Shown here piece by piece: positions 1-10,743 of a stretch of 64,000 nucleotides of DNA; position 1 is the first letter of the stretch, and every line of letters starts with the position of its first letter. The notes under the pieces were generated by a model. That model searched no databases. It was not told the origin of the DNA and saw only the letters and a list, made by a program, of their open reading frames with translations. The position numbers were made by a program, and so were the translations under genes. The DNA is from Shimia sp. CNT1-13L.2 (GTDB lineage: Bacteria > Pseudomonadota > Alphaproteobacteria > Rhodobacterales > Rhodobacteraceae): positions 62,001 to 126,000 of the forward strand of contig NZ_JANDJO010000004.1 in the NCBI RefSeq assembly GCF_024331145.1, given 5' to 3'.

Positions 1-1
1 G

Positions 2-1570
2 CTCGCCCTCCTCGCAGGCTCGGTTGGTGGCGTTCTGATTGGCGCCATTCCCGGTGTCGGCCCTGCCGTGGCCATCGCCATCCTGCTGCCCGCGACCTTC
101 TCGATGGACCCAATTGTCGGGCTCACCGTTCTCTTGGGTATCTACGGCTCGTCCATGTACGGCGGCGCGATTCCGGCGATCCTGATCAACACGCCCGGCA
201 CTGCCGTGAACGCGCTCACCACCTATGACGGCTATCCGATGACCGCGCGGGGCGAAGCGCGGCGCGCGCTGTCGCTGGCCTATTCGGCCTCGTTCTTCGG
301 CGGCATCTTCTCGGTGGTCTGCCTCATCCTTTTTGCCCCGATCCTGGCCAAGATCGCCCCAATGTTCGGCAGTCGCGAAATCTTTCTCGCAGCCCTCCTC
401 GGCATCATTCTGGTGATCGTGGCGCACCGTGGTCAGGCCCTGATCGCCGCCGCGCTGGCCTGTTTCGGCGTCTTCCTCAACACCGTCGGCCTCGAGCCGG
501 TGAAATACTCCAAACGTTTCACCTTTGATCAGTCTTTCCTGTCTTCGGGCGTGAACCTGATCGTTGTGGTTCTGGGTCTCTTTGCCCTCTCGCAGGCCTT
601 CTACCTGTTGCAGGGCGATGACGAGAAAGTCCGCATGACCAAGCTGCGCGGCGGCATGTTCCAGGGCCTGCGCGAACTGGCGCGGCACCCGCGCGTGGCC
701 GGTGTCTCGGGCACCTTTGGCGTGGTGATGGGCATGATCCCCGGCGTCGGCGAATTCACCGCCCAGTTCCTGAGCTACACCTACGCGCAGAAATCTTCGA
801 AACGTCCGCAGGACTTTGGCCACGGGTCCTCCGAAGGCCTGATCGCGGCCGAAACCGCCAACAACGCCGTGCCGGCCGCCGCCATGGTGCCCCTGCTGGC
901 GCTTGGCATTCCGGGCGAGGCCCTGACGGCGATGATGCTCTCGGTGTTTTACGTGCATAACGTGGTGCCCGGCCCGCAGCTGTTCCAGAACCAGATGGAC
1001 TTCGTGGTTGCCCTCTACCTCGCCCTGCTGGCGCTGAACGTGCTGGTGCTGGTGTTCCTGCTGTTTGCCACAAACCACCTGATCAAGGTGGTGAAGATTC
1101 CCAACCGGTTCCTCGGCGTCTGTATCCTCGTACTGAGTTTCGTCGGCGTCTACAGCCTGCGCAACTCGGTCACCGACTGCCTGATCGCGGCCTGTTTCGG
1201 CATCTTCGGTTTCGTTCTCAAACGCCTGTCCCTTCCGGCTGTTCCGATCATCCTCGGCATGGTTCTGGGCGGCATCATGGAGGTCAAGCTGCGTGCCGGC
1301 ATGGCACGGGTAAAAACCCCCTTCGACTTCATTGACCGCCCGATCGCAATGATCCTCTTCCTGATGATCCTGGGCGTCCTGTTCATCCATTTCCGCCGAG
1401 TCTGGCTGGATCGCAAAGCAATCAAGGAGGCCAAATGGTCGACCAAACACGCATCGACGAACTTCGGCATGCACCTGTTCCGCCGCAAAAGCTATTTGTT
1501 GAGGGAACGTGGACGGAAGGTTCGGGAGAAACACTTGAAGTACAATCCCCGATCGACGGACAAACGCTAA
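2..1570 (+). CDS. tctA: TctA-family tripartite tricarboxylate transporter large permease (5'-truncated by window edge)
   Basis: Integral membrane permease of a tripartite tricarboxylate-type carrier, which works with a periplasmic TctC receptor and a small TctB subunit to import carboxylates. The reading frame is open to the window edge and begins inside the glycine-rich TctA signature (GAIPGVGPAVAIAILLPATF); a GTG at 68 is only an internal codon, so roughly the first 20-30 residues, plus tctB and tctC, should lie to the left. About ten hydrophobic helices follow. The frame runs 136 nt into the next gene, which adds an Arg/Lys-rich tail of about 45 residues after the last helix that is unusual for TctA. 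It is the first visible member of the operon that continues through the aldehyde dehydrogenase. Substrate cannot be read from sequence; the operon suggests an amino- or hydroxy-carboxylate. Confidence 0.9.
   Translation, partial: LALLAGSVGGVLIGAIPGVGPAVAIAILLPATFSMDPIVGLTVLLGIYGSSMYGGAIPAILINTPGTAVNALTTYDGYPMTARGEARRALSLAYSASFFGGIFSVVCLILFAPILAKIAPMFGSREIFLAALLGIILVIVAHRGQALIAAALACFGVFLNTVGLEPVKYSKRFTFDQSFLSSGVNLIVVVLGLFALSQAFYLLQGDDEKVRMTKLRGGMFQGLRELARHPRVAGVSGTFGVVMGMIPGVGEFTAQFLSYTYAQKSSKRPQDFGHGSSEGLIAAETANNAVPAAAMVPLLALGIPGEALTAMMLSVFYVHNVVPGPQLFQNQMDFVVALYLALLALNVLVLVFLLFATNHLIKVVKIPNRFLGVCILVLSFVGVYSLRNSVTDCLIAACFGIFGFVLKRLSLPAVPIILGMVLGGIMEVKLRAGMARVKTPFDFIDRPIAMILFLMILGVLFIHFRRVWLDRKAIKEAKWSTKHASTNFGMHLFRRKSYLLRERGRKVREKHLKYNPRSTDKR
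1424..1437 (+). promoter_or_regulatory. Strong Shine-Dalgarno and ATG fixing the aldehyde dehydrogenase start
   Basis: AAGGAGG at 1424-1430 lies four bases before ATG 1435. It sits inside the end of the tctA frame and shows that the aldehyde dehydrogenase really starts within tctA, not after its stop. Confidence 0.8.
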
Positions 1571-2919
1571 CCACACTGGTCCGCGCCTCTGCCGACGATG
1601 TGAACACCGCGGTGGCCTCGGCCCGCGCCGCCTTTGAAGATGGCCGCTGGAGCCGCATGGCACCGGCAGGCCGCAAGAAGGTGCTGATGCGGCTGGCCGA
1701 GCTGATCGAACAGAACGCCGTGGAACTGGCGGTTCTGGGCGTGCGCGACAACGGCACCGAGTTCAACATGGCCCTCAAGGCCGAGCCGGGCTCGGCTGCG
1801 GGCACCTTCCGCTACTACGCCGAGGCGCTCGACAAGGTGTATGGCGAAGTTGCCCCAACCGATCCGTCGGTTCTGGGTCTTGTCCACAAGGAACCCGTGG
1901 GCGTAGTTGGGGCCATCGTGCCGTGGAACTTCCCGCTGATGATCGGCGCATGGAAGCTCGCTCCGGCGCTGGCGATGGGCAACTCCGTTGTGCTGAAACC
2001 GGCGGAAACTGCGTCTCTATCCCTGCTGAAACTGGCCGAACTGGCCTCGGAAGCGGGCCTGCCTGACGGTGTCCTGAACGTGGTCACCGGCCAGGGGGCC
2101 GTGGCGGGCGAGGCGCTCGCGCTGTCGATGGATGTCGATGTGTTGGTCTTTACCGGCTCTGGCGGCGTCGGCCGTCGCCTGCTGGAGTACTCTGCTCGCT
2201 CAAACTTGAAGCGCTGTTACTTGGAGCTTGGCGGAAAATCCCCGAATATCGTCTTTGCCGATGCGCCCGATCTCGAAGAGGCTGCCAAGGTGTCCGCCAT
2301 GGGCATCTTCCGGAACTCGGGTCAGGTGTGCGTGGCAGGGTCTCGACTTTTGGTCCAAGAGTCCATCCATGACGAGTTTGTCGAGACCCTTTCCCGCCAC
2401 GCGGCGGCGCTCAGGGTTGGCAACCCGCTTGATCTCGACACCCACGTGGGTGCGGTCAACTCTCTCACACAGCTTGAAGGCAACCTTGGCTTCATCGACA
2501 GCGCCCATGCCGATGGCAACACCATCGCGCTTGGCGGCAATCGCATCCTGCAAGAGACCGGCGGCTTTTATATGGAGCCGACCATCGTGACCGGCGTGAA
2601 ACCCACCGACCGCGTCGCCCAGCAAGAGGTCTTTGGTCCGGTTCTGGGTGTTCTGCCCTTCAAGACCGAGGAAGAGGCCATCGCCATTGCCAACAGCACC
2701 GATTATGGCCTTGCCGCCGGTGTCTGGACCTCCGACCTTGGCCGTGCCCACCGCATGATCCGCGGCGTACGTTCGGGGGTGATCCACGTGAACACCTATG
2801 GCGGCGCCGACAACACCGTGCCGCTGGGGGGGCACAAGCAATCGGGCAATGGCCACGACAAATCCCTGCATGCGCTCGACAAATACGTCGACCTGAAAAC
2901 CGCTTGGATCAAGCTATGA
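1435..2919 (+). CDS. NAD(P)-dependent aldehyde dehydrogenase, PuuC-like
   Basis: Cytosolic ALDH-superfamily enzyme of 494 residues (normal length) oxidising an aldehyde to a carboxylate. The general base lies in LELGGKSPN (Glu264) and the catalytic cysteine in GQVCVAGSR (Cys299); the PWNFP cofactor-site motif is present. The C-terminal segment GHDKSLHALDKYVDLKTAW resembles the gamma-glutamyl-aminobutyraldehyde dehydrogenase (PuuC) group, which handles amino-aldehydes. It overlaps tctA by 136 nt and its stop overlaps the next start (ATGA). The inferred role is to oxidise the aldehyde released by the downstream phospho-lyase, for instance 2-aminoadipate semialdehyde or acetaldehyde. The family call is firm, the substrate is inference. 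Confidence 0.93.
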   Translation: MVDQTRIDELRHAPVPPQKLFVEGTWTEGSGETLEVQSPIDGQTLTTLVRASADDVNTAVASARAAFEDGRWSRMAPAGRKKVLMRLAELIEQNAVELAVLGVRDNGTEFNMALKAEPGSAAGTFRYYAEALDKVYGEVAPTDPSVLGLVHKEPVGVVGAIVPWNFPLMIGAWKLAPALAMGNSVVLKPAETASLSLLKLAELASEAGLPDGVLNVVTGQGAVAGEALALSMDVDVLVFTGSGGVGRRLLEYSARSNLKRCYLELGGKSPNIVFADAPDLEEAAKVSAMGIFRNSGQVCVAGSRLLVQESIHDEFVETLSRHAAALRVGNPLDLDTHVGAVNSLTQLEGNLGFIDSAHADGNTIALGGNRILQETGGFYMEPTIVTGVKPTDRVAQQEVFGPVLGVLPFKTEEEAIAIANSTDYGLAAGVWTSDLGRAHRMIRGVRSGVIHVNTYGGADNTVPLGGHKQSGNGHDKSLHALDKYVDLKTAWIKL

Positions 2920-4211
2920 ATGTCGCTGCAAAAAACCTGATCGACCGGCGCGCAAAGCTGCTCGGCCCCAATGTCAGCACCTTTTACGAAGAGCCCGTGC
3001 ATATCGTGCGCGGCCAAGGGGTCTGGGTCTGGGATGCCGACGGCAACAAGTTCCTCGACTGTTACAACAACGTGCCCCACGTCGGACATTGCCACCCCAA
3101 GGTGGTCGAAGCGATCTGCCAACAGGCAGGCACGCTGAACACCCACACGCGCTATCTGCACGAGGGCATTCTGGACTATGTCGAGGCGCTCACCGACACC
3201 TTTGCCGATCCGCTGAACACCGCGATCATGACCTGCACGGGCTCCGAGGCCAACGACATCGCCCTGCGCATGGCGCGCGGCATCACCGGCAATACCGGCG
3301 TGATTGCCACGGACCACACCTACCACGGCAACACCATGGCGGTGTCGCAACTGTCCTGCACCAATCCGCCCCCGGATCGCTGGGACAACGTGGCCTTTGT
3401 GCCCGCACCCGACAGCTATCGCCCCCTGGGTGGTGAGCCCGGCATGGCCCATGCCCAGGCCTTTGCGGCAGAGGTCGAAAAGGCCATCGCCGATCTCAAG
3501 GCCCGTGGCCATGGTCTCGCGGCGATGATCATCTGCCCCTATTTCGCCAACGAAGGCTTTCCCACCCTCGAAAAGGGCTGGCTGCAACCCGCCATTGACG
3601 CGGTGCGCAAGGCTGGCGGCATCGTCATCGCCGACGAGGTCCAGCCCGGGTTTGGCCGTTTGGGCACCGATTTCTGGGGCCACCAGAAGGCGGGCTTCCT
3701 GCCCGACGTGGTGACCATGGGCAAACCGATGGCCAACGGCCACCCGGTTGGCGGCGTCGTGACCAGCATGGAGATCATGTCGGCCTTCCGAAAGAACTTC
3801 CGCTATTTCAACACCTTCGGCGGCAACCCCGTCTCGGCGGCGGCGGCCCATGCCACCCTCAGGGTGGTGCAGGAAGAGGGGCTGATGGAAAACGCCCGCA
3901 CGGTGGGGGACTATGCCCGCGACGGGCTGCGCAGGCTTGCCGAAACCCACGCCTGCATTGGCGACGTGCGCGGCTCGGGCCTGTTCTTCGGGGCCGAGAT
4001 GGTGCTTGATCGCGAAACCCGCGCTCCGGCCACGGCCTTTACCAAGAAGATCGCCAATGCCATGCGCCAAAAGGGCGTTTTGCTGAACTTCCTTGGCATC
4101 CACTACAACGCGCTCAAGATCCGCCCACCGTTGCCATTCACGAAAGAACAGGCCGACATCCTGCTGGAACGGCTGGACGAAGCCCTGCACGAAACGCCGC
4201 TGGAACCATGA
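2916..4211 (+). CDS. PLP enzyme of the class-III aminotransferase fold, AGXT2L/phospho-lyase type
   Basis: A 431-residue fold-type I PLP enzyme. The Schiff-base lysine is Lys270 in VTMGKPMANGHP; IADEVQPGFGRLG carries the PLP-binding Asp. Motifs recalled from the ethanolamine-phosphate and 5-phosphohydroxylysine phospho-lyases are all present: NVPHVGHCHP near the N-terminus, LNTHTRYLH, DHTYHGNT, YFNTFGGNPVS, GDVRGSGLFFG and LKIRPPLPFT. This favours elimination of phosphate and ammonia from an O-phospho-amino-alcohol over ordinary transamination. The kinase encoded immediately downstream strengthens the reading. Start: ATG 2916, overlapping the previous stop as ATGA; a TTG 12 nt upstream is in frame but has no ribosome site. 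It could still be an omega-aminotransferase. Confidence 0.85.
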   Translation: MNVAAKNLIDRRAKLLGPNVSTFYEEPVHIVRGQGVWVWDADGNKFLDCYNNVPHVGHCHPKVVEAICQQAGTLNTHTRYLHEGILDYVEALTDTFADPLNTAIMTCTGSEANDIALRMARGITGNTGVIATDHTYHGNTMAVSQLSCTNPPPDRWDNVAFVPAPDSYRPLGGEPGMAHAQAFAAEVEKAIADLKARGHGLAAMIICPYFANEGFPTLEKGWLQPAIDAVRKAGGIVIADEVQPGFGRLGTDFWGHQKAGFLPDVVTMGKPMANGHPVGGVVTSMEIMSAFRKNFRYFNTFGGNPVSAAAAHATLRVVQEEGLMENARTVGDYARDGLRRLAETHACIGDVRGSGLFFGAEMVLDRETRAPATAFTKKIANAMRQKGVLLNFLGIHYNALKIRPPLPFTKEQADILLERLDEALHETPLEP

Positions 4212-5140
4212 GCGACACGATCCTCAATGAGGCGCTGCGACAATGGGGGGTGTCCGGCAACCCTCACCTCGTGGCGCAACGGGAAAATCACGTCTATGCG
4301 GTGCAAAAGGACGGGACGAAATATGCCTTGCGCCTGCATCGCCCCGGCTATCGCACCCAGGCGGAACTGCGCTCGGAACTCGACTGGATGCAGCATCTCG
4401 TGGGGGCGGGCCTGACCGTTCCGACGCCGGTGCCGTCACAGCAGGGCGTCCTTCTGGCCACGATCAACGGCCAGAACGTCAGCGTGCTGACATGGCTGTC
4501 CGGCACCCCGATCGGCGAGGGCACCGAGATCACACAAGGCACCCCCACCGAAGTTGCGGGGCGGGTTGGCCGTGAAATGGCCCGCCTGCACACCGTAACG
4601 GATGCATGGGAGACACCAGCGGGGTTTTCGCGCCCGCGCTGGACGGCCCCCGAGATCCTTGGCGAGACCCCGTTGTGGGGCCGCTTCTGGGAACATCCGC
4701 ATCTTTCGCAGGACGACACCGCCCTGTTGCAGGCGGTGCGTCTCAAGGCCGCCGAAGACTGCGCAGCGATGGATCAGGATATCGGCCTGATCCACGCCGA
4801 CCTGCTCACGGAAAACCTGCTGGTCGAGGGTGACCGGATCGGCATCCTCGACTTTGACGATTGCGCCATCGGCTATCGCGCCTTCGAACTCGCAACCTTC
4901 CTGTTGCGCTATCTCGAACGCCCCGATTTTGGCGAGATCCGCGCCGCGCTGGTGCAGGGCTATGCCGCCCGCCGCCCGATCCCGTCCGAAGAACTGGATC
5001 TGGCGTTGCTGCTGCGCGCACTCACCTATGTTGGCTGGATCATTCCACGCCTCGACGAACCCGGCGGATACATCCGCTCGACCCGCATGATTGCCCGGGC
5101 CACGCGCCTGGCCCAAGATTACCTGGAAGGGAGACCATGA
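4208..5140 (+). CDS. APH-fold small-molecule kinase (hydroxylysine/amino-alcohol kinase candidate)
   Basis: A 310-residue aminoglycoside-phosphotransferase-fold kinase. The catalytic loop LIHADLLTENLL has His196, Asp198 and Asn203, followed by the metal-binding ILDFDD about 15 residues later; the N-terminal lobe has YALRLHRPG with the probable ATP-contacting lysine region. APH-fold enzymes paired with AGXT2L-type lyases phosphorylate hydroxylysine or ethanolamine-like amines in known cases. Overlaps both neighbours (ATGA at each end), so it is translated with the lyase in a fixed ratio. An antibiotic-resistance role is unlikely given the catabolic neighbours. Substrate is inferred. Confidence 0.85.
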   Translation: MSDTILNEALRQWGVSGNPHLVAQRENHVYAVQKDGTKYALRLHRPGYRTQAELRSELDWMQHLVGAGLTVPTPVPSQQGVLLATINGQNVSVLTWLSGTPIGEGTEITQGTPTEVAGRVGREMARLHTVTDAWETPAGFSRPRWTAPEILGETPLWGRFWEHPHLSQDDTALLQAVRLKAAEDCAAMDQDIGLIHADLLTENLLVEGDRIGILDFDDCAIGYRAFELATFLLRYLERPDFGEIRAALVQGYAARRPIPSEELDLALLLRALTYVGWIIPRLDEPGGYIRSTRMIARATRLAQDYLEGRP

Positions 5141-6375
5141 TGAGCCAGGACAAAACCATCCTTGTGGTTGGCACCTACGACACCAAGGACGACGAGTTGA
5201 ATTACATGTGCGAGTGCATCCGCGGACAGGGCGGCAACGTCCTGTCGATGGACATCAGCGTGCTGGGTGACCCGTCCGAGCCAACCGATTATTCCAAGCA
5301 CGATGTTGCCGAAGAAGGCGGGTCTTCGATTCAGGCAGCCATCGACAGCGGCGACGAAAACACTGCCATGCAGATCATGGCGCGTGGCGGGGCCACCCTT
5401 GCCCTGCGCCTTTATCGCGAAGGCAAGGTGCATGGCGTTGTCGTGCTTGGCGGCACGATGGGCACCGATGTTGCGCTCGACATCTGTCAGGCGCTGCCGC
5501 TGGGGGTGCCGAAATACGTGGTCTCTACCGTGTCCTTTTCGCATCTCCTGCCACCCGAACGCCTTGCCGCCGACATCCAGATGATCCTCTGGGCCGGCGG
5601 GCTTTATGGTCTGAACTCGGTCTGCAAATCCTCCCTGTCGCAAGCCGCCGGCGCCGTCCTTGGTGCCGCCCGCGCGGTCGAAGCCCCCTCGCGCGACAAG
5701 CCGCTGATCGGCATGACATCCTTTGGCAAGACCATCCTGCATTACATGGTCACCCTGAAACCGGCATTGGAAGCACGCGGCTTCGAGGTCGCCGTGTTCC
5801 ACGCCACCGGCATGGGCGGGCGGGCCTTTGAATCGCTGGCTTCGGAAGGCGCCTTTGCCTGCGTCATGGATTTCGCCACGCAGGAAGTGGGCAACCACCT
5901 GATGGGCGGTTTGTCGGCCGGGGCGGATCGCCTGACCAACGCGGGGGCCTCGGCGACGCCGCAGATCGTGGCCCCGGCCTGTTACGACCTTGTCGACATG
6001 GTGGGCTGGAAACCCCTGCCCGACCGCATGAGCCACAAACCCGCGCATGACCACAACCGCCTGCTGAAATCGGTGGTTCTGGATGCAGAGGAACGCCGCG
6101 AAGTGGCCCGCACCCATGCCGAGAAACTGGCCACGGCCAAGGGCAAATCGGTCTTCATCATGCCCAAGGGCGGTTGCAACGAATGGGATCGCCCCGGCGC
6201 CGACCTGCATGATGCCGAGGGCCTTGCCGCCTTTGTCGACGAGATCGAGGCCACCCTGCCCGAAACCGTGACCTACATCCCGCTGGAGGCGCATATCAAC
6301 GATGCCGTTTTCTGCGACACGGTGCTCGAGGTGTTTGACGGCTGGGTCGCTGACGGCACCATCAAGACTGCGTAA
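5137..6375 (+). CDS. Tm-1-like ATP-binding domain protein (UPF0261)
   Basis: A 412-residue protein matching the UPF0261/Tm-1-like family: N-terminal ILVVGTYDTKDDE, central GGTMGTDVALD, GMTSFGKT, FHATGMGGRAFE and C-terminal FIMPKGGCNEWDRPGADLHD. The family is related to the ATP-binding part of the tomato Tm-1 virus-resistance protein; bacterial members have no settled reaction that I know of and often neighbour a PEP-mutase-like TIM-barrel protein, which is absent here. Two ATGs (5137, 5140) are possible; the first overlaps the kinase stop. Being last in a coupled operon ending in a terminator, it probably serves the same pathway, but how is unknown. Confidence 0.85.
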   Translation: MMSQDKTILVVGTYDTKDDELNYMCECIRGQGGNVLSMDISVLGDPSEPTDYSKHDVAEEGGSSIQAAIDSGDENTAMQIMARGGATLALRLYREGKVHGVVVLGGTMGTDVALDICQALPLGVPKYVVSTVSFSHLLPPERLAADIQMILWAGGLYGLNSVCKSSLSQAAGAVLGAARAVEAPSRDKPLIGMTSFGKTILHYMVTLKPALEARGFEVAVFHATGMGGRAFESLASEGAFACVMDFATQEVGNHLMGGLSAGADRLTNAGASATPQIVAPACYDLVDMVGWKPLPDRMSHKPAHDHNRLLKSVVLDAEERREVARTHAEKLATAKGKSVFIMPKGGCNEWDRPGADLHDAEGLAAFVDEIEATLPETVTYIPLEAHINDAVFCDTVLEVFDGWVADGTIKTA

Positions 6376-6426: not shown

Positions 6427-7446
6427 TTATTTAGGGTCTGATTTTCCGTCGTACCGCGCCTGCCATTCCTTGAGGATACGGGCGCGGTTGTTGGCGGCGA
6501 ATTCGAAATCATTGTCGATCATGCCTGCCTGCAACCCTTCGGGGAAATGCTCGACCGGCTTGGCGATTCCGGGAATGGCCAGCACGGCATAGCCCTTGTT
6601 GTACATCCGGTTTGCCTCTTCGGTGACCGCGAAGTCCACCAGCTTCTGCGCCGCTTCAAGGTTCATGGTGCCGGCCACGATGGCCGTGGCCTCCATGTCC
6701 CAGCCCACACCCTCGCTTGGCACGATAATCTCGAGCGGAGCACCGGCGGCCTTGGATTTGGCACCACGGAAGGCAAAGCTGATCCCGATCGGAATTTCGC
6801 CCGCCGCCGCCAGCTTGCAGGGCTTGGAGCCCGAGTGGGTATAGCGCGCGATATTCTCGTGCAGACCGTCCATATAGGCCCAGCCGCCCTCTTCTCCGAA
6901 CATCTGCAACCAGCTTGACACGTCAAGGAACCCGGTGCCCGACGAGTTCGGGTTGGGCATGATCAGATGCCCCTTGTACTGCGGATCAAGCAGGTCTTTC
7001 CACGACGTAGGAACCGCCAGACCAAGCTTTTCGGCCTCGACTGTGTTGTAGCAAACCGAGGCCACCCAGGCGTCCATACCGGTCCAGTAGGGTGGATTGT
7101 CCGCGTCGACAAACTTGGAATCCAGCTTTTCGACACCCGCCGGTGCATAGGGTTCCAGCATCCCTTCGGATTTCAGCAACAGAAGCGAAGTCGCCGCCAG
7201 CCCCCACACCACATCGGCCTGTGGATTGTTCTTTTCCGCCAACAGCTTGGCCGTCACGATCCCGGTCGAATCCCGCACCCAGTTGATGGTGATATCCGGA
7301 TGCTGCTCGTTGAATTTCGCGGCATAGCGGGCGAGATCCTCGGCCTCGATCGCCGAATAGACGGTCAGTTCGGTTTCCGCCACCGAGGCCGTCGCGATCC
7401 CCAACCCCGCCAGAGCCGCGAGAAGAAATTTCGATTTGCGCATCAT
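6427..7446 (-). CDS. ABC transporter substrate-binding protein, 2-aminoethylphosphonate/iron (PhnS-like) type
   Basis: A 339-residue periplasmic binding protein with a Sec signal peptide (about residues 1-23, ending ASVA-E). The start of the mature protein, ELTVYSAIEAEDLARYAAKF, and the segments DVVWGLAATSLL, PNPNSSGTGFLDVSSW and EANRMYNKGYAVLAIPGI are typical of the family annotated as putative 2-aminoethylphosphonate or Fe3+ binding proteins. No permease or ATPase gene is adjacent, so it is either an orphan receptor or has been separated from its transporter. It converges on the kinase/phospho-lyase operon, a suggestive pairing if the ligand is a phosphorylated or phosphonate amine. Start: tandem ATGs after AGGGGGAC. 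Confidence 0.82.
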   Translation of the reverse strand: MMRKSKFLLAALAGLGIATASVAETELTVYSAIEAEDLARYAAKFNEQHPDITINWVRDSTGIVTAKLLAEKNNPQADVVWGLAATSLLLLKSEGMLEPYAPAGVEKLDSKFVDADNPPYWTGMDAWVASVCYNTVEAEKLGLAVPTSWKDLLDPQYKGHLIMPNPNSSGTGFLDVSSWLQMFGEEGGWAYMDGLHENIARYTHSGSKPCKLAAAGEIPIGISFAFRGAKSKAAGAPLEIIVPSEGVGWDMEATAIVAGTMNLEAAQKLVDFAVTEEANRMYNKGYAVLAIPGIAKPVEHFPEGLQAGMIDNDFEFAANNRARILKEWQARYDGKSDPK

Positions 7447-7649: not shown

Positions 7650-8150
7650 ATGAAAATCGCCTACACCATGACTCGCGGCAGGGGCGAGCTTGACCGCCTG
7701 CTTGCCGATTTCGCCGAAACGCTGGGCGCGCGCGGCGTGCGCACCTGCGGTATCGTCCAGATCAACACCGATTGCGGCTCGGGCCATCGCTGCGACATGG
7801 ACGTGCAGGTTCTACCCGACGGGCCACGCATCCGGATTTCCCAGTATCTCGGCAAGGAGTCGAAAGGCTGCCGCCTTGATCCGGCCTCGCTCGAAACCTC
7901 GGTCGCGGAAGTGGGCCGCCGAATGGAAGAGGATTTCGACATCTTCATCCTCAACAAGTTCGGCAAGCAGGAATCCGAGGGCCGGGGCTTTCGTCACCTG
8001 ATCGGCGATGCTTTGGCGCGCGGGGCTTCGGTTCTGGTTGGCACCAATCCGTTGAATGCGGAAAAGTTCGAAGACTTCACCGACGGCGCCGCCACCAGCA
8101 TCGCCCCTGATCTCGACGCCCTGTTGCGCTGGTACGAAAGCCCTAAATAA
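7650..8150 (+). CDS. DUF2478 family protein
   Basis: A 166-residue cytosolic protein with N-terminal MKIAYTMTRGRGELDRLLADF and a cysteine-containing stretch (CGIVQINTDCGSGHRCDMDVQ), then FDIFILNKFGKQESEGRGF and GASVLVGTNPLN. This is the pattern of DUF2478, an NTPase-like family often encoded with molybdate transport or nitrogen-fixation genes; none are adjacent here. The start was chosen at ATG 7650 because upstream codons in the frame run through the AT-rich promoter region and do not look like protein. It overlaps the convergent TauE gene by 8 nt. Molecular function is unknown. Confidence 0.75.
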   Translation: MKIAYTMTRGRGELDRLLADFAETLGARGVRTCGIVQINTDCGSGHRCDMDVQVLPDGPRIRISQYLGKESKGCRLDPASLETSVAEVGRRMEEDFDIFILNKFGKQESEGRGFRHLIGDALARGASVLVGTNPLNAEKFEDFTDGAATSIAPDLDALLRWYESPK

Positions 8151-8916
8151 ACACCGCCCGCCGGATCAGGTTCAGGGCGGCAATGGTCAGAACAATCAGC
8201 GTCGCCTTGCGAAAGGTCTCCTGATCGATCTGGTCGTGAATGCGGGTTCCGATCCACATGCCGAACATCGCCGGTGGCAAAAGCCCGATCGACAGCGGCA
8301 GGGTCTCCCAGCGCAAGACACCCGATGTCAGGTGCGCGGCCAACAGGGCCACCGCCCCCAGCCCGTAGATCACCCCCTGCACGCGAATCTGTTCGGTCTT
8401 TTCGGTGTTCAGTGCGGTCAGGTACAGAACGGTCGGCGGCCCCCAGACACCCGACAGCCCGCCAACGATCCCGGCAAACCCGCCCACGGCCATCTCGGCG
8501 CGCGCATTGGCAACGGTCAGGCGAATCTGGACACCCAAAAGCTGAAGCCCGGCAAAGATCGCAACCGGCACGCCGATCACCAGCAACAGGATATTTTGCG
8601 GAAGAACCGGCACGAACTGGGCCGAGATCAGGAGAAAGACAAGCCCCGTCCAGAGGAACACCCGGAACTTCTTGACCGAGGCAATCGCCGCGCCCACGCC
8701 CTGGCGAAGCGCCTGCACACCGTTCGACACAAGGGTCGGCAGGATCAACCCCGCCAGTGCCAGTTCAGGTGCCATGAGCGAGCTTAGGCCGGAGATCAGC
8801 ACCATCGGCATACCGAATCCCACCATGCCCTTGATCAGCCCCGCCAGCAGGGCCACCAGCACAGCCAGAAGGAAAACCACAGGGTCGAGGGAAGATAACA
8901 GCAGGTCCATGCCCAA
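8143..8916 (-). CDS. Sulfite exporter TauE/SafE family membrane protein
   Basis: A 257-residue protein with about eight hydrophobic helices. It shows the repeated TauE/SafE motif twice: LAGLIKGMVGFGMPMVL near residue 25 and AVGGFAGIVGGLSGVWGPPTVLYL near residue 150. Family members move sulfite, sulfoacetate or other organosulfur anions across the inner membrane; the substrate here is not evident. It is monocistronic and divergent from mcd. Confidence 0.88.
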   Translation of the reverse strand: MGMDLLLSSLDPVVFLLAVLVALLAGLIKGMVGFGMPMVLISGLSSLMAPELALAGLILPTLVSNGVQALRQGVGAAIASVKKFRVFLWTGLVFLLISAQFVPVLPQNILLLVIGVPVAIFAGLQLLGVQIRLTVANARAEMAVGGFAGIVGGLSGVWGPPTVLYLTALNTEKTEQIRVQGVIYGLGAVALLAAHLTSGVLRWETLPLSIGLLPPAMFGMWIGTRIHDQIDQETFRKATLIVLTIAALNLIRRAVFI

Positions 8917-8950
8917 GGTATAAGCGGCCTAGCGCTGCACCGCAAAAAAT

Positions 8951-9020
8951 CAACGCGCAACAAACGAACAATTTCCAATAAACAAAAGTATTATTGTTGC
9001 GCTGCATGTGCAAACAGATT
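8951..9020. promoter_or_regulatory. TTGC/GCAA-rich operator candidate upstream of mcd
   Basis: The mcd-TauE intergenic region holds an 8-bp inverted repeat CGCAACAA (8956-8963) / TTGTTGCG (8994-9001), a TATTAT element at 8989-8994, and a further GTTGCGCTGCATGTGCAAAC arrangement (8996-9015). TTGC/GCAA half-sites resemble those bound by short-chain acyl-CoA-responsive regulators of the ethylmalonyl-CoA/propionyl-CoA genes (PccR/RamB-like). This assignment is inference. Confidence 0.35.
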
Positions 9021-9054
9021 ATGTCACAGTGCAGCAATGTGAAGGACATGAATC

Positions 9055-10743
9055 ATGGCCCATGACGGACAGGACCTGACGATGACAAACTCTGTAATTC
9101 TTCCCGATCTCCTTGCCCTGACCGGCGCGGCTGTTGCCCCGGTCAAGGCACTGCTTGAGACCGCAACCGCAACCCTGCGTGAAACCGTATCTGCCGATGG
9201 CCGCGTTTCCGGCAGCCTTCTGGAACAGAACCAGGCAGCCGCGCATGGTCTGTCGTGGCTGGCAACCTACGAACAATCCCTGACCCAGATGCAAGCCTGG
9301 GCCGAACGTCTTCAGGGCGAGGGCAAGTTCGGTGAGATGGAACAGCTGATTCACCAGATCGCCTTTGGTGAGTACCTGAACCAGATCAAGGGCGGCATCC
9401 CGATGAGCCAGGGCGAGATTGTCCGCCTTGGCGATCTTGGCCTTGGCGTTGACGCGCTGTCGGGTCTCAACACCGCCGAGATCGATGCGCTTTGCACCTC
9501 GGGCAACACCCAGAACGCCCGTATGCGCCTTGTCGAACTGATGCAGGACAACGCGGGCCACGCCACCTTTGGCGCCTCGGGCCTCGATGAAGAACTCGAG
9601 ATGATCCGCGAACAGTTCCGTCGTTACGCCGACGAACGCGTGGTGCCCCATGCCCACGAATGGCACCTCAAGGATGATTACATCCCGATGGAAATCCTCG
9701 AAGAGCTGGCCGAAATGGGCGTCTTCGGCCTGACCATCCCCGAGGAATACGGCGGTCTTGGCCTGTCCAAGGCCTCGATGGTCGTGGTGTCGGAAGAACT
9801 GTCGCGCGGCTATATCGGTGTTGGCTCGCTCGGCACCCGCTCGGAAATCGCGGCCGAACTGGTCGAGGCCGGCGGCACCGAGGAACAGAAACAACACTGG
9901 CTGCCGAAATTGGCCAGCGCCGAAATCCTGCCGACCGCCGTGTTCACTGAACCGAATACCGGTTCCGATCTCGGCAGCCTGCGCACCCGCGCCGTGAAAA
10001 ACGCCGATGGCGACTACGAGATCACCGGCAACAAGACCTGGATCACCCACGCGGCCCGCACCCACGTAATGACCCTGCTGGCGCGCACCGATCCGAACTC
10101 GACCGACCACCGCGGCCTGTCTATGTTCCTTGCCGAGAAAACCCCGGGCGACGACGAGAACCCCTTCCCGACCGAAGGCATGACCGGCGGCGAGATCGAG
10201 GTGCTTGGCTATCGCGGCATGAAGGAATTCGAACTGGGCTTTGACAGCTTCAAGGTCAAGAAAGAGAACCTGCTTGGCGGCGAAGAAGGCCAGGGCTTCA
10301 AACAGCTGATGAAAACCTTTGAAGCGGCCCGCATCCAGACCGCCGCCCGCGCCATCGGCGTGGCCCAGAACGCGCTTGAGGTCGGCATGCAATACGCCGA
10401 AGACCGCAAGCAGTTTGGCAAGTCGCTGATCAACTTCCCCCGCGTCGCCGGCAAGCTGGCGATGATGGCGGTCGAGATCATGGTCGCGCGTCAGCTGACC
10501 TATTTCTCGGCCTGGGAAAAAGACCACGACCAACGCTGCGACCTCGAGGCCGGCATGGCCAAGCTGCTGGGTGCCCGCGTGGCATGGGCCGCCGCCGACA
10601 ACGCGCTGCAAATCCACGGCGGCAACGGCTTTGCGCTGGAATACCAGATCAGCCGCATCCTCTGCGACGCGCGCATCCTGAACATCTTCGAAGGCGCCGC
10701 TGAAATCCAGGCCCAGGTCATCGCCCGCCGCCTGCTGGGCTAG
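9055..10743 (+). CDS. mcd: (2S)-Methylsuccinyl-CoA dehydrogenase
   Basis: Flavoprotein of the acyl-CoA dehydrogenase fold, proposed to oxidise (2S)-methylsuccinyl-CoA to mesaconyl-CoA in the ethylmalonyl-CoA pathway of acetyl-CoA assimilation. At 562 residues it is about 170 longer than ordinary acyl-CoA dehydrogenases. The extra N-terminal helical domain (LLEQNQAAAHGLSWLATYEQ, IHQIAFGEYLNQIKGG) is a hallmark of Mcd. The catalytic core has FTEPNTGSDL, the substrate/FAD region HGGNGFALEYQISR and the active-site Glu about position 546 in NIFEGAAEIQ. Start ATG 9055 follows GAAGGA; ATG 9082 after AGGAC is an alternative. Other pathway genes (ccr, ecm) are not in the window. Confidence 0.9.
   Translation: MAHDGQDLTMTNSVILPDLLALTGAAVAPVKALLETATATLRETVSADGRVSGSLLEQNQAAAHGLSWLATYEQSLTQMQAWAERLQGEGKFGEMEQLIHQIAFGEYLNQIKGGIPMSQGEIVRLGDLGLGVDALSGLNTAEIDALCTSGNTQNARMRLVELMQDNAGHATFGASGLDEELEMIREQFRRYADERVVPHAHEWHLKDDYIPMEILEELAEMGVFGLTIPEEYGGLGLSKASMVVVSEELSRGYIGVGSLGTRSEIAAELVEAGGTEEQKQHWLPKLASAEILPTAVFTEPNTGSDLGSLRTRAVKNADGDYEITGNKTWITHAARTHVMTLLARTDPNSTDHRGLSMFLAEKTPGDDENPFPTEGMTGGEIEVLGYRGMKEFELGFDSFKVKKENLLGGEEGQGFKQLMKTFEAARIQTAARAIGVAQNALEVGMQYAEDRKQFGKSLINFPRVAGKLAMMAVEIMVARQLTYFSAWEKDHDQRCDLEAGMAKLLGARVAWAAADNALQIHGGNGFALEYQISRILCDARILNIFEGAAEIQAQVIARRLLG

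Follow-up and report, generated by a model that had tools for sequence, protein, structure and literature searches.

The sequence analysed here, hereafter the window, is a 64,000-nucleotide stretch of the Shimia sp. CNT1-13L.2 genome (4.1 Mb), corresponding to positions 62001-126000 of contig C11, and this report concerns the operon-like unit at its left end. An earlier note, made from the sequence alone, had described an aldehyde dehydrogenase (ALDH), a class-III-fold pyridoxal phosphate (PLP) enzyme and a kinase as one coupled set. The ALDH gene (window 1435..2919, plus strand, as are all genes of the set), whose ATG is preceded by AGGAGG, encodes 494 aa with a Pfam Aldedh domain and the motifs GQVC and ELGGK, and its product is a putative arylacetaldehyde dehydrogenase. 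The PLP enzyme, a putative aryl amino-alcohol-phosphate phospho-lyase, follows at 2916..4211, the ATG at 2916 being favoured as start over a TTG at 2904, and an APH-fold kinase, putatively acting on the hydroxyl of 1-amino-2-ols, lies at 4208..5140. A UPF0261/Tm-1-like gene (5137..6375; NCBIfam NF002676, 636 bits, cut-off 556) completes the series, and each of the three junctions is a 4-base overlap (ATGA). Together with the intact catalytic motifs and a gene order found in all seven close genomes, these overlaps confirm the observation of real, coupled genes.

The unit is larger than the three genes first noticed, reaching downstream to UPF0261 and upstream past the window edge. TctA, the large permease of a tripartite tricarboxylate transporter, occupies 1..1570 on the plus strand with its start upstream of the edge (Pfam TctA, E=1.4e-123; synteny in 7/7 close genomes), TctB lies at C11:61410-61940, and TctC ends at C11:61345. 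Two genes diverge from these: one encodes an IclR regulator (C11:59441-60283), the other a further class-III aminotransferase, AT3 (C11:58060-59415), which scores 738 bits against the PRK07481 model (cut-off 575). The TctA frame enters ALDH by 136 bases (window 1435-1570); a comparable tail was counted by eye in 22 of 30 TctA frames, and may derive partly from the conserved ALDH start read in another frame.

The PLP enzyme found its best PDB matches in the phospholyase 5g4i (8e-117) and human ETNPPL, 6tor (2e-106), with 44% identity to each; the third-ranking match, dialkylglycine decarboxylase (2e-57), and the listed aminotransferases fell far behind. A predicted model (mean pLDDT 84.8) returned the same two structures at fold ranks 1-4; its active-site loops are of low confidence, and the model carries no claim about the pocket. 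The lysine of MGKPMANGHP and the motifs DEVQ and GSEAND are present, and K270 is invariant in 30 of 30 aligned sequences. A FastTree tree, where rerooting may have displaced the support labels, placed the enzyme apart from AT3 and from the class-III aminotransferases of its own genome that were included. Bootstrapped analysis with dialkylglycine decarboxylase added united the window type, a rhizobial type and a second type, paralogue B, in one clade (ultrafast bootstrap, UFBoot, 94) that stands apart from 5g4i, 6tor and fused or distant homologues. Judged by its nearest relatives and motifs, the enzyme is a member of the class-III PLP phospho-lyases (ETNPPL/PHYKPL group), as the earlier note had supposed; PDB matches, trees and fold place it among phospholyases rather than among the omega-aminotransferases compared, which was the check that the note had suggested. 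We propose that it acts on a phosphorylated amino-alcohol, eliminating phosphate and ammonia. Its best NCBIfam models, PRK06148/PRK06149, scored 503 bits (cut-off 1128), and the kinase was matched by the same models.

The kinase belongs to Pfam APH, carries intact HADLLTEN (HxDxxxxN type) and DFDD motifs, and has a predicted model of pLDDT 95.0. Its best match by phmmer, profile and fold was 6ef6, titled a microcompartment-associated aminopropanol kinase, at 30% identity. On the grounds of fold, motifs and nearest described relative it is of the amino-alcohol kinase type, in line with the earlier assignment. Aminopropanol and octopamine share the CHOH-CH2-NH2 group, so the match fits a kinase of 1-amino-2-ols. 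For ALDH, whose C-terminus had been called PuuC-like, PuuC is indeed the nearest NCBIfam model, but its 554 bits lie under the cut-off of 850. Matches of ALDH and AT3 were too broad to single out a substrate. The UPF0261 protein has 9mpy and Tm-1 as PDB relatives, and part of a study on the plant Tm-1 gene gives the family no bacterial function (PMC5028733).

We compared the locus in a set of seven close genomes (PLP enzyme at least 74% identical): six of the genus, its own among them, and one, G033, from a different genus. The order AT3-IclR|TctC-TctB-TctA-ALDH-PLP-APH-UPF0261 was kept in all seven, which argues that the arrangement is not due to chance. In the otherwise complete unit of G033 (L045), UPF0261 (L045 6963-8197) and AT3 (L045 15918-17233) are each broken into two reading frames, either by mutation or decay or through sequencing error. 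In several Shimia genomes the unit is followed, as at window 7653-10743, by genes for a DUF2478 protein, a TauE-like exporter and a long acyl-CoA dehydrogenase.

A wider comparison used named loci, the best 80 of 505 confirmed relatives in a named genome collection, of which 58 were full length; presence was scored at identities of 55% for AT3, ALDH and the APC permease, 45% for UPF0261, 35% for TctA and 30% for IclR. The PLP enzyme and the kinase were adjacent on the same strand in 80/80. Within the fetched stretches UPF0261 occurred in 65, AT3 and IclR in 60 each, and ALDH in 59, while TctA was found in 37 and an APC-family permease in 22. Coupling to UPF0261 and a tripartite permease, which the earlier note had not known as a described system, is thus real and conserved. 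Rhizobial loci have another order (ALDH< APC< IclR> UPF0261> HAD> AT3> PLP> APH>) and the APC permease, indicating that gene content outlives both gene order and transporter type. A copy on the Ruegeria pomeroyi megaplasmid comprises AT3, ALDH, the PLP enzyme (79%), the kinase and a Tm-1-like gene. Plasmid p1 of Gemmobacter fulvus (L155) carries AT3-PLP-phosphotransferase followed by a four-gene ABC transporter, a third transporter type, with a FAH-family gene farther on.

The divergent promoter region before IclR contains the palindrome TTGACAG-N13-CTGTCAA (L009 12312-12338; C11:60312-60338). Of the 80 named loci 27 carry it, as do L040-L045, in a single copy always within 90 bases of the IclR match on its divergent side; at L111 the gene past it is the APC permease in place of TctC. 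No exact copy was seen in 12 of 38 TctA-bearing loci (a looser coverage than the 37-locus count), nor was the palindrome found in the stretches L137, L148 and L151-L153, which have hpa genes (described below) without the unit. It is a candidate operator at which IclR probably acts, and its first half may serve as a -35 box as well.

The gene neighbourhood in relatives also bears on function. On plasmid pRLN1 of Rhizobium leguminosarum, genes of the 4-hydroxyphenylacetate/homoprotocatechuate (hpa) pathway surround the unit; HpaR, HpaE, HpaD, HpaH and HpaI exceed their NCBIfam cut-offs, and HpaB-like (758 vs 885 bits), HpaC-like and HpaG-like proteins fall under theirs. The deposited annotation of an Agrobacterium plasmid lists ALDH, APC permease, IclR, Tm-1-like, HAD, two aminotransferases and phosphotransferase, and continues with hpaR, isomerase, hpaE, hpaD, gabD, FAH, hpaH and hpaI. 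Counting a locus as hpa-linked when two or more hpa genes (at least 40% identity) lay in the 10 kb fetched from each flank, we found linkage in 29 of the 80 named loci (28 under other thresholds), including 18/22 with the APC-type and 6/37 with the TctA-type transporter; L121, with HpaR and a LigB-type dioxygenase (54%), is borderline. About six arrangements could be told apart by eye: hpa genes flanking both sides (L112), hpaBC in between (L128, L131), convergent (L158, L160), hpaR-hpaE downstream of UPF0261 (L070, L078, L080, L086, L089), at the AT3 end (L077), and, in Shimia, at that end but with an intervening P450 set (L149, L150).

Linkage was also assessed at the level of genomes. For 47 of the 80 loci chosen, 44 genomes were searched, and 40 held a VOC-type HpaD, which lay on the contig of the PLP enzyme in 18 and within 25 kb of it in 17. 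Across 60 genomes, own included, 6 of the 7 that have the unit also had HpaD, as against 8 of the 53 that lack it (p=3.7e-4). In a phylum sample, 36 of 398 genomes had a homologue at 1e-110; 20 loci were fetched, AT3 accompanied the PLP enzyme in five, and three of these five, all of one genus, lay beside hpa genes, as did none of the 15 loci lacking AT3. An hpa cluster adjoined none of the ten loci inspected for paralogue B and distant homologues, a single HpaC-like match (32%, L055) being the nearest approach.

Paralogue pair B itself (G000:C1:697059-698309, L046) has a PLP enzyme 59-60% and a kinase 38% identical to those of the window, unrelated-looking neighbours, and counterparts in many genomes of the genus. 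The residues separating the hpa-linked enzymes from 5g4i/6tor do not prove an aryl pocket, since most also occur in paralogue B. Also set aside was a PbfA-like phosphonate route, prompted by a lone phnS2-type gene for a 2-aminoethylphosphonate binding protein at window 6427-7446 (505 bits, cut-off 393); the PbfA model scores the PLP enzyme at 187 bits (cut-off 525), and phnS2 adjoins the unit in just 2 of the 7 close genomes.

HpaE, HpaD, HpaG(-like), HpaH and HpaI of the hpa catabolon are all present in the own genome. Contig C17 encodes HpaE (70% identical to the rhizobial protein), HpaH (62%), an HpaG-like protein (60% to a rhizobial protein that is itself under its model's cut-off), the iron-type HpaD_Fe (448 bits, cut-off 316) and an HpaF-like protein named by eye, whose relative in L156 sits at an annotated isomerase. 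Contig C1 encodes the VOC-type HpaD (79%) and HpaI (55%). A P450-ferredoxin pair lies beside HpaD/HpaI in this genome and between the hpa genes and the unit in two other Shimia. The full set consists of a cytochrome P450, a glutamine-synthetase-like ligase and a 2Fe-2S ferredoxin (L137 15104-18899, own C1:499103-502898; L149 12735-16484; L150 1596-4606), to which L137 and L149 add a class-I glutamine amidotransferase; it is possibly a ring hydroxylase set substituting for HpaBC.

The distribution of AT3 bears on how the unit is composed. Its orthologues occurred in 14 of 385 genomes of the class (15 places), and 12 stretches were fetched. Three of these (L177, L178, L179) hold AT3, IclR, ALDH and Tct, two of them with UPF0261, and no kinase or lyase in the stretch. 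Two more, L181 and L182 of one genome, adjoin hpa genes and hold AT3, HAD and ALDH, again without kinase or lyase in the stretch, L181 having UPF0261 as well; in the remaining seven the core was mostly or wholly missing. Genome G036 (L177) has the AT3-ALDH-Tct-UPF0261 core and no PLP match genome-wide. Genomes whose PLP-APH pair stands alone have an AT3 core elsewhere, hpa-adjacent in L189 (AT3, IclR, TctCBA and UPF0261, ALDH not in the stretch) and L190 (with ALDH and HpaB-like). Gemmobacter lutimaris (L114) and Zhengella mangrovi (L126) have an IclR-TctC-TctA-PLP-APH-UPF0261 cluster lacking AT3 and ALDH, and a separate AT3 core with its own UPF0261. AT3 was present in 18 of 19 chosen genomes with the window-type PLP enzyme, and also in G003, whose only PLP enzyme is paralogue B. 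AT3 cores beside hpa genes without kinase and lyase suggest that AT3, ALDH and ring cleavage make up a separate pathway, which the kinase and lyase would join at the aldehyde; from the gene content of these loci, the latter look like a branch added to an aminotransferase core.

Taken together, homology, intact motifs, gene order, hpa linkage and co-occurrence lead us to propose, with a probability of roughly 0.6, that the unit is catabolic for aromatic 2-arylethylamines and has an added branch for their beta-hydroxylated forms; the substrate, the reactions, transport by TctCBA and regulation are what we infer from these observations. TctCBA would import the substrate, with IclR acting at the palindrome. 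AT3 would turn dopamine or tyramine (R-CH2-CH2-NH2) into the arylacetaldehyde (R-CH2-CHO). In the added branch, the kinase would phosphorylate norepinephrine or octopamine (Ar-CHOH-CH2-NH2) at the benzylic hydroxyl. The PLP phospho-lyase, acting on R-CH(OPO3)-CH2-NH2, would then eliminate phosphate and release ammonia to yield the same R-CH2-CHO as AT3, a convergence suggested by the established chemistry of these enzyme families. ALDH would then oxidise the arylacetaldehyde from both branches to the arylacetate. The end products, 4-hydroxy- or 3,4-dihydroxyphenylacetate, would be the entry to the hpa pathway, with the ring cut by hpa enzymes encoded elsewhere in the genome. The chemistry read by the earlier note is thus supported and has precedent, but the substrate is probably a different one: the hydroxylysine, ethanolamine or aminopropanol it had named finds no support, and the hpa context suggests an aromatic amine with a beta-hydroxyl group. 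A hydroxylysine route was set aside: inspection of the neighbouring genes by eye showed no aminoadipate gene, though the genome as a whole was not searched for that pathway.

A number of observations weigh against the proposed aromatic route. Binding of an aryl group by the proteins of the unit is deduced from context, with nothing in their sequences to show it, and function may vary across the clade of window type, rhizobial type and paralogue B; indeed, paralogue B, which lacks hpa neighbours, joins the rhizobial hpa-linked PLP enzymes (UFBoot 78). Tripartite transporters are best known for carboxylates and are unusual for amines, and the nearest structure to TctC is BugD, a weak match. UPF0261 has no step in the scheme and is kept in several loci without ALDH or AT3. 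Some kinase-lyase pairs are unlinked from the core, and 9 of the 58 full-length loci have neither AT3 nor ALDH within 10 kb of the PLP-APH pair. Fewer than two hpa genes were found in the stretches of 51 of the 80 named loci, some of whose contigs end early; no hpa gene is annotated within 20 kb of the Ruegeria pomeroyi megaplasmid copy, the chromosome not having been searched; and the hpa genes of the own genome sit on contigs other than that of the unit. The VOC-type HpaD is absent from 4 of the 44 PLP genomes, and from G036, where the core is therefore not tied to that dioxygenase. Within the genus the association is weak (HpaD in 5/6 genomes with the unit vs 7/19 without, p=0.07), and all the linkage and co-occurrence counts ignore the relatedness of the genomes. 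Lastly, HpaB, the 4-hydroxyphenylacetate 3-monooxygenase, had no match in the own genome at E<=1e-40 and was found in none of the seven close genomes. Octopamine or tyramine would therefore need another ring hydroxylase there, and a catechol amine (norepinephrine, dopamine) is the easier reading here unless such a hydroxylase serves. HpaB occurred in 15 of 47 unit genomes, eleven times at 89% identity or more, always in those eleven with rhizobial-type loci. According to part of a review of 4-hydroxyphenylacetate hydroxylase, an engineered variant takes octopamine as substrate (PMC10816480).

Other explanations fare less well. The unit could serve a small aliphatic amino-alcohol such as 1-amino-2-propanol, ethanolamine or 5-hydroxylysine, giving propionaldehyde, acetaldehyde or aminoadipate semialdehyde and then the acid by ALDH, the hpa neighbours being incidental. 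We regard this as unlikely: the kinase is closest to aminopropanol kinase, the lyase to ethanolamine-phosphate lyases, and the 51 loci lacking two nearby hpa genes would be as expected, but hpa linkage recurs in varied arrangements, HpaD is found in 40 of the 44 genomes with the PLP enzyme, the enzyme stands at 44% identity to each solved lyase in a separate clade (94 UFBoot), and AT3 would be left without a place. That two jobs share one regulon, with AT3, ALDH and hpa for tyramine or dopamine, kinase and lyase for another amino-alcohol, and ALDH alone in common, strikes us as improbable. The AT3 cores without kinase and lyase, the nine full-length loci with PLP-APH away from AT3 and ALDH, and the second IclR-Tct-UPF0261 clusters of Zhengella and Gemmobacter are in its favour; yet in the window the kinase and lyase are tied to ALDH by 4-base overlaps, AT3 occurs in nearly all (18 of 19) of the chosen window-type genomes, and a beta-hydroxy analogue would cover both sets by one pathway. 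It is very improbable that what is carried is a precursor in carboxylated or conjugated form, for instance an amino acid resembling beta-hydroxytyrosine or tyramine/octopamine as an acyl amide, and that UPF0261 helps to process it, for while the tripartite transporter and the regular presence of UPF0261 would suit it, the rhizobial versions have an APC permease and no hydrolase or decarboxylase was recognised by eye as a fixed neighbour.

Extending the proposed aromatic route beyond the window is more tentative. It is conceivable, at somewhat less than even odds, that marine Rhodobacterales and rhizobia hold a dedicated catecholamine catabolon, with the ATP-dependent kinase and the phospho-lyase stripping norepinephrine (octopamine too where HpaB is present) of its beta-hydroxyl and amine, the omega-aminotransferase leading dopamine/tyramine to the same aldehyde, and UPF0261 as a regular partner. 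If so, genes would be assigned to the degradation of octopamine and norepinephrine by bacteria, kinase/phospho-lyase chemistry would reach aromatic neurotransmitter-type amines, it would become predictable which root-associated and marine bacteria can consume such amines, and the UPF0261/Tm-1-like family would gain a testable metabolic context. We know of bacterial octopamine and norepinephrine breakdown as enzyme activities only. Among the open-access papers that our searches listed, judged by title and abstract opening, none joins the kinase/lyase set to octopamine, norepinephrine, aromatic amines or hpa. SPOA0374 of R. pomeroyi is given in part of one paper as a TRAP gene (PMC9870897), which has no bearing on the unit, and part of another adds nothing further (PMC8217296).

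Several known systems resemble the unit in part. The RMM microcompartment aminopropanol system shares the kinase family, with 6ef6, which presumably belongs to an RMM locus, as best match by sequence and fold; a kinase/lyase reading of that system exists. Unlike it, the unit is linked to hpa, AT3, UPF0261 and IclR, with an aromatic substrate proposed, and no RMM shell protein occurs among nine neighbours (Pfam) or was recognised by eye in the upstream open reading frames. Parts of the RMM study describe loci in which a phosphotransferase gene is accompanied by genes for an aminotransferase, an aldehyde dehydrogenase and an amino acid permease, a precedent for the combination in the unit, and propose amino-alcohol degradation through aminoacetone by a dehydrogenase/aminotransferase route (PMC4207490). 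Ethanolamine-phosphate phospho-lyases (A1RDF1/5g4i; human ETNPPL/6tor) share the fold and PLP lysine and are the closest solved relatives of the window enzyme, which differs in its 44% identity to each, its separate clade and the larger substrate proposed. The 5-phosphohydroxylysine phospho-lyase is alike in fold and PLP lysine at the level of the group, its own sequence lying outside the comparison. That class-III enzymes can act as lyases is shown by PbfA (PMC8154272). Fused kinase-aminotransferase proteins (PRK06148/PRK06149) are the shared best NCBIfam models, whereas the window has two separate genes.

The hpa meta-cleavage pathway has in common with the unit its neighbour genes in the relatives, and HpaE and HpaD are in the own genome; to our knowledge, the amine-to-acid part proposed here does not belong to that pathway. 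Octopamine dehydratase of Pseudomonas (EC 4.2.1.87), which converts octopamine to 4-hydroxyphenylacetaldehyde and ammonia, can be likened by description only: it makes the same net change as a single hydro-lyase that uses no ATP. Veiga-da-Cunha and colleagues reportedly put forward the kinase-lyase idea in animals in 2012. Kinase/lyase chemistry is known for small amino-alcohols, but its link to aromatic neurotransmitter-like amines looks new.

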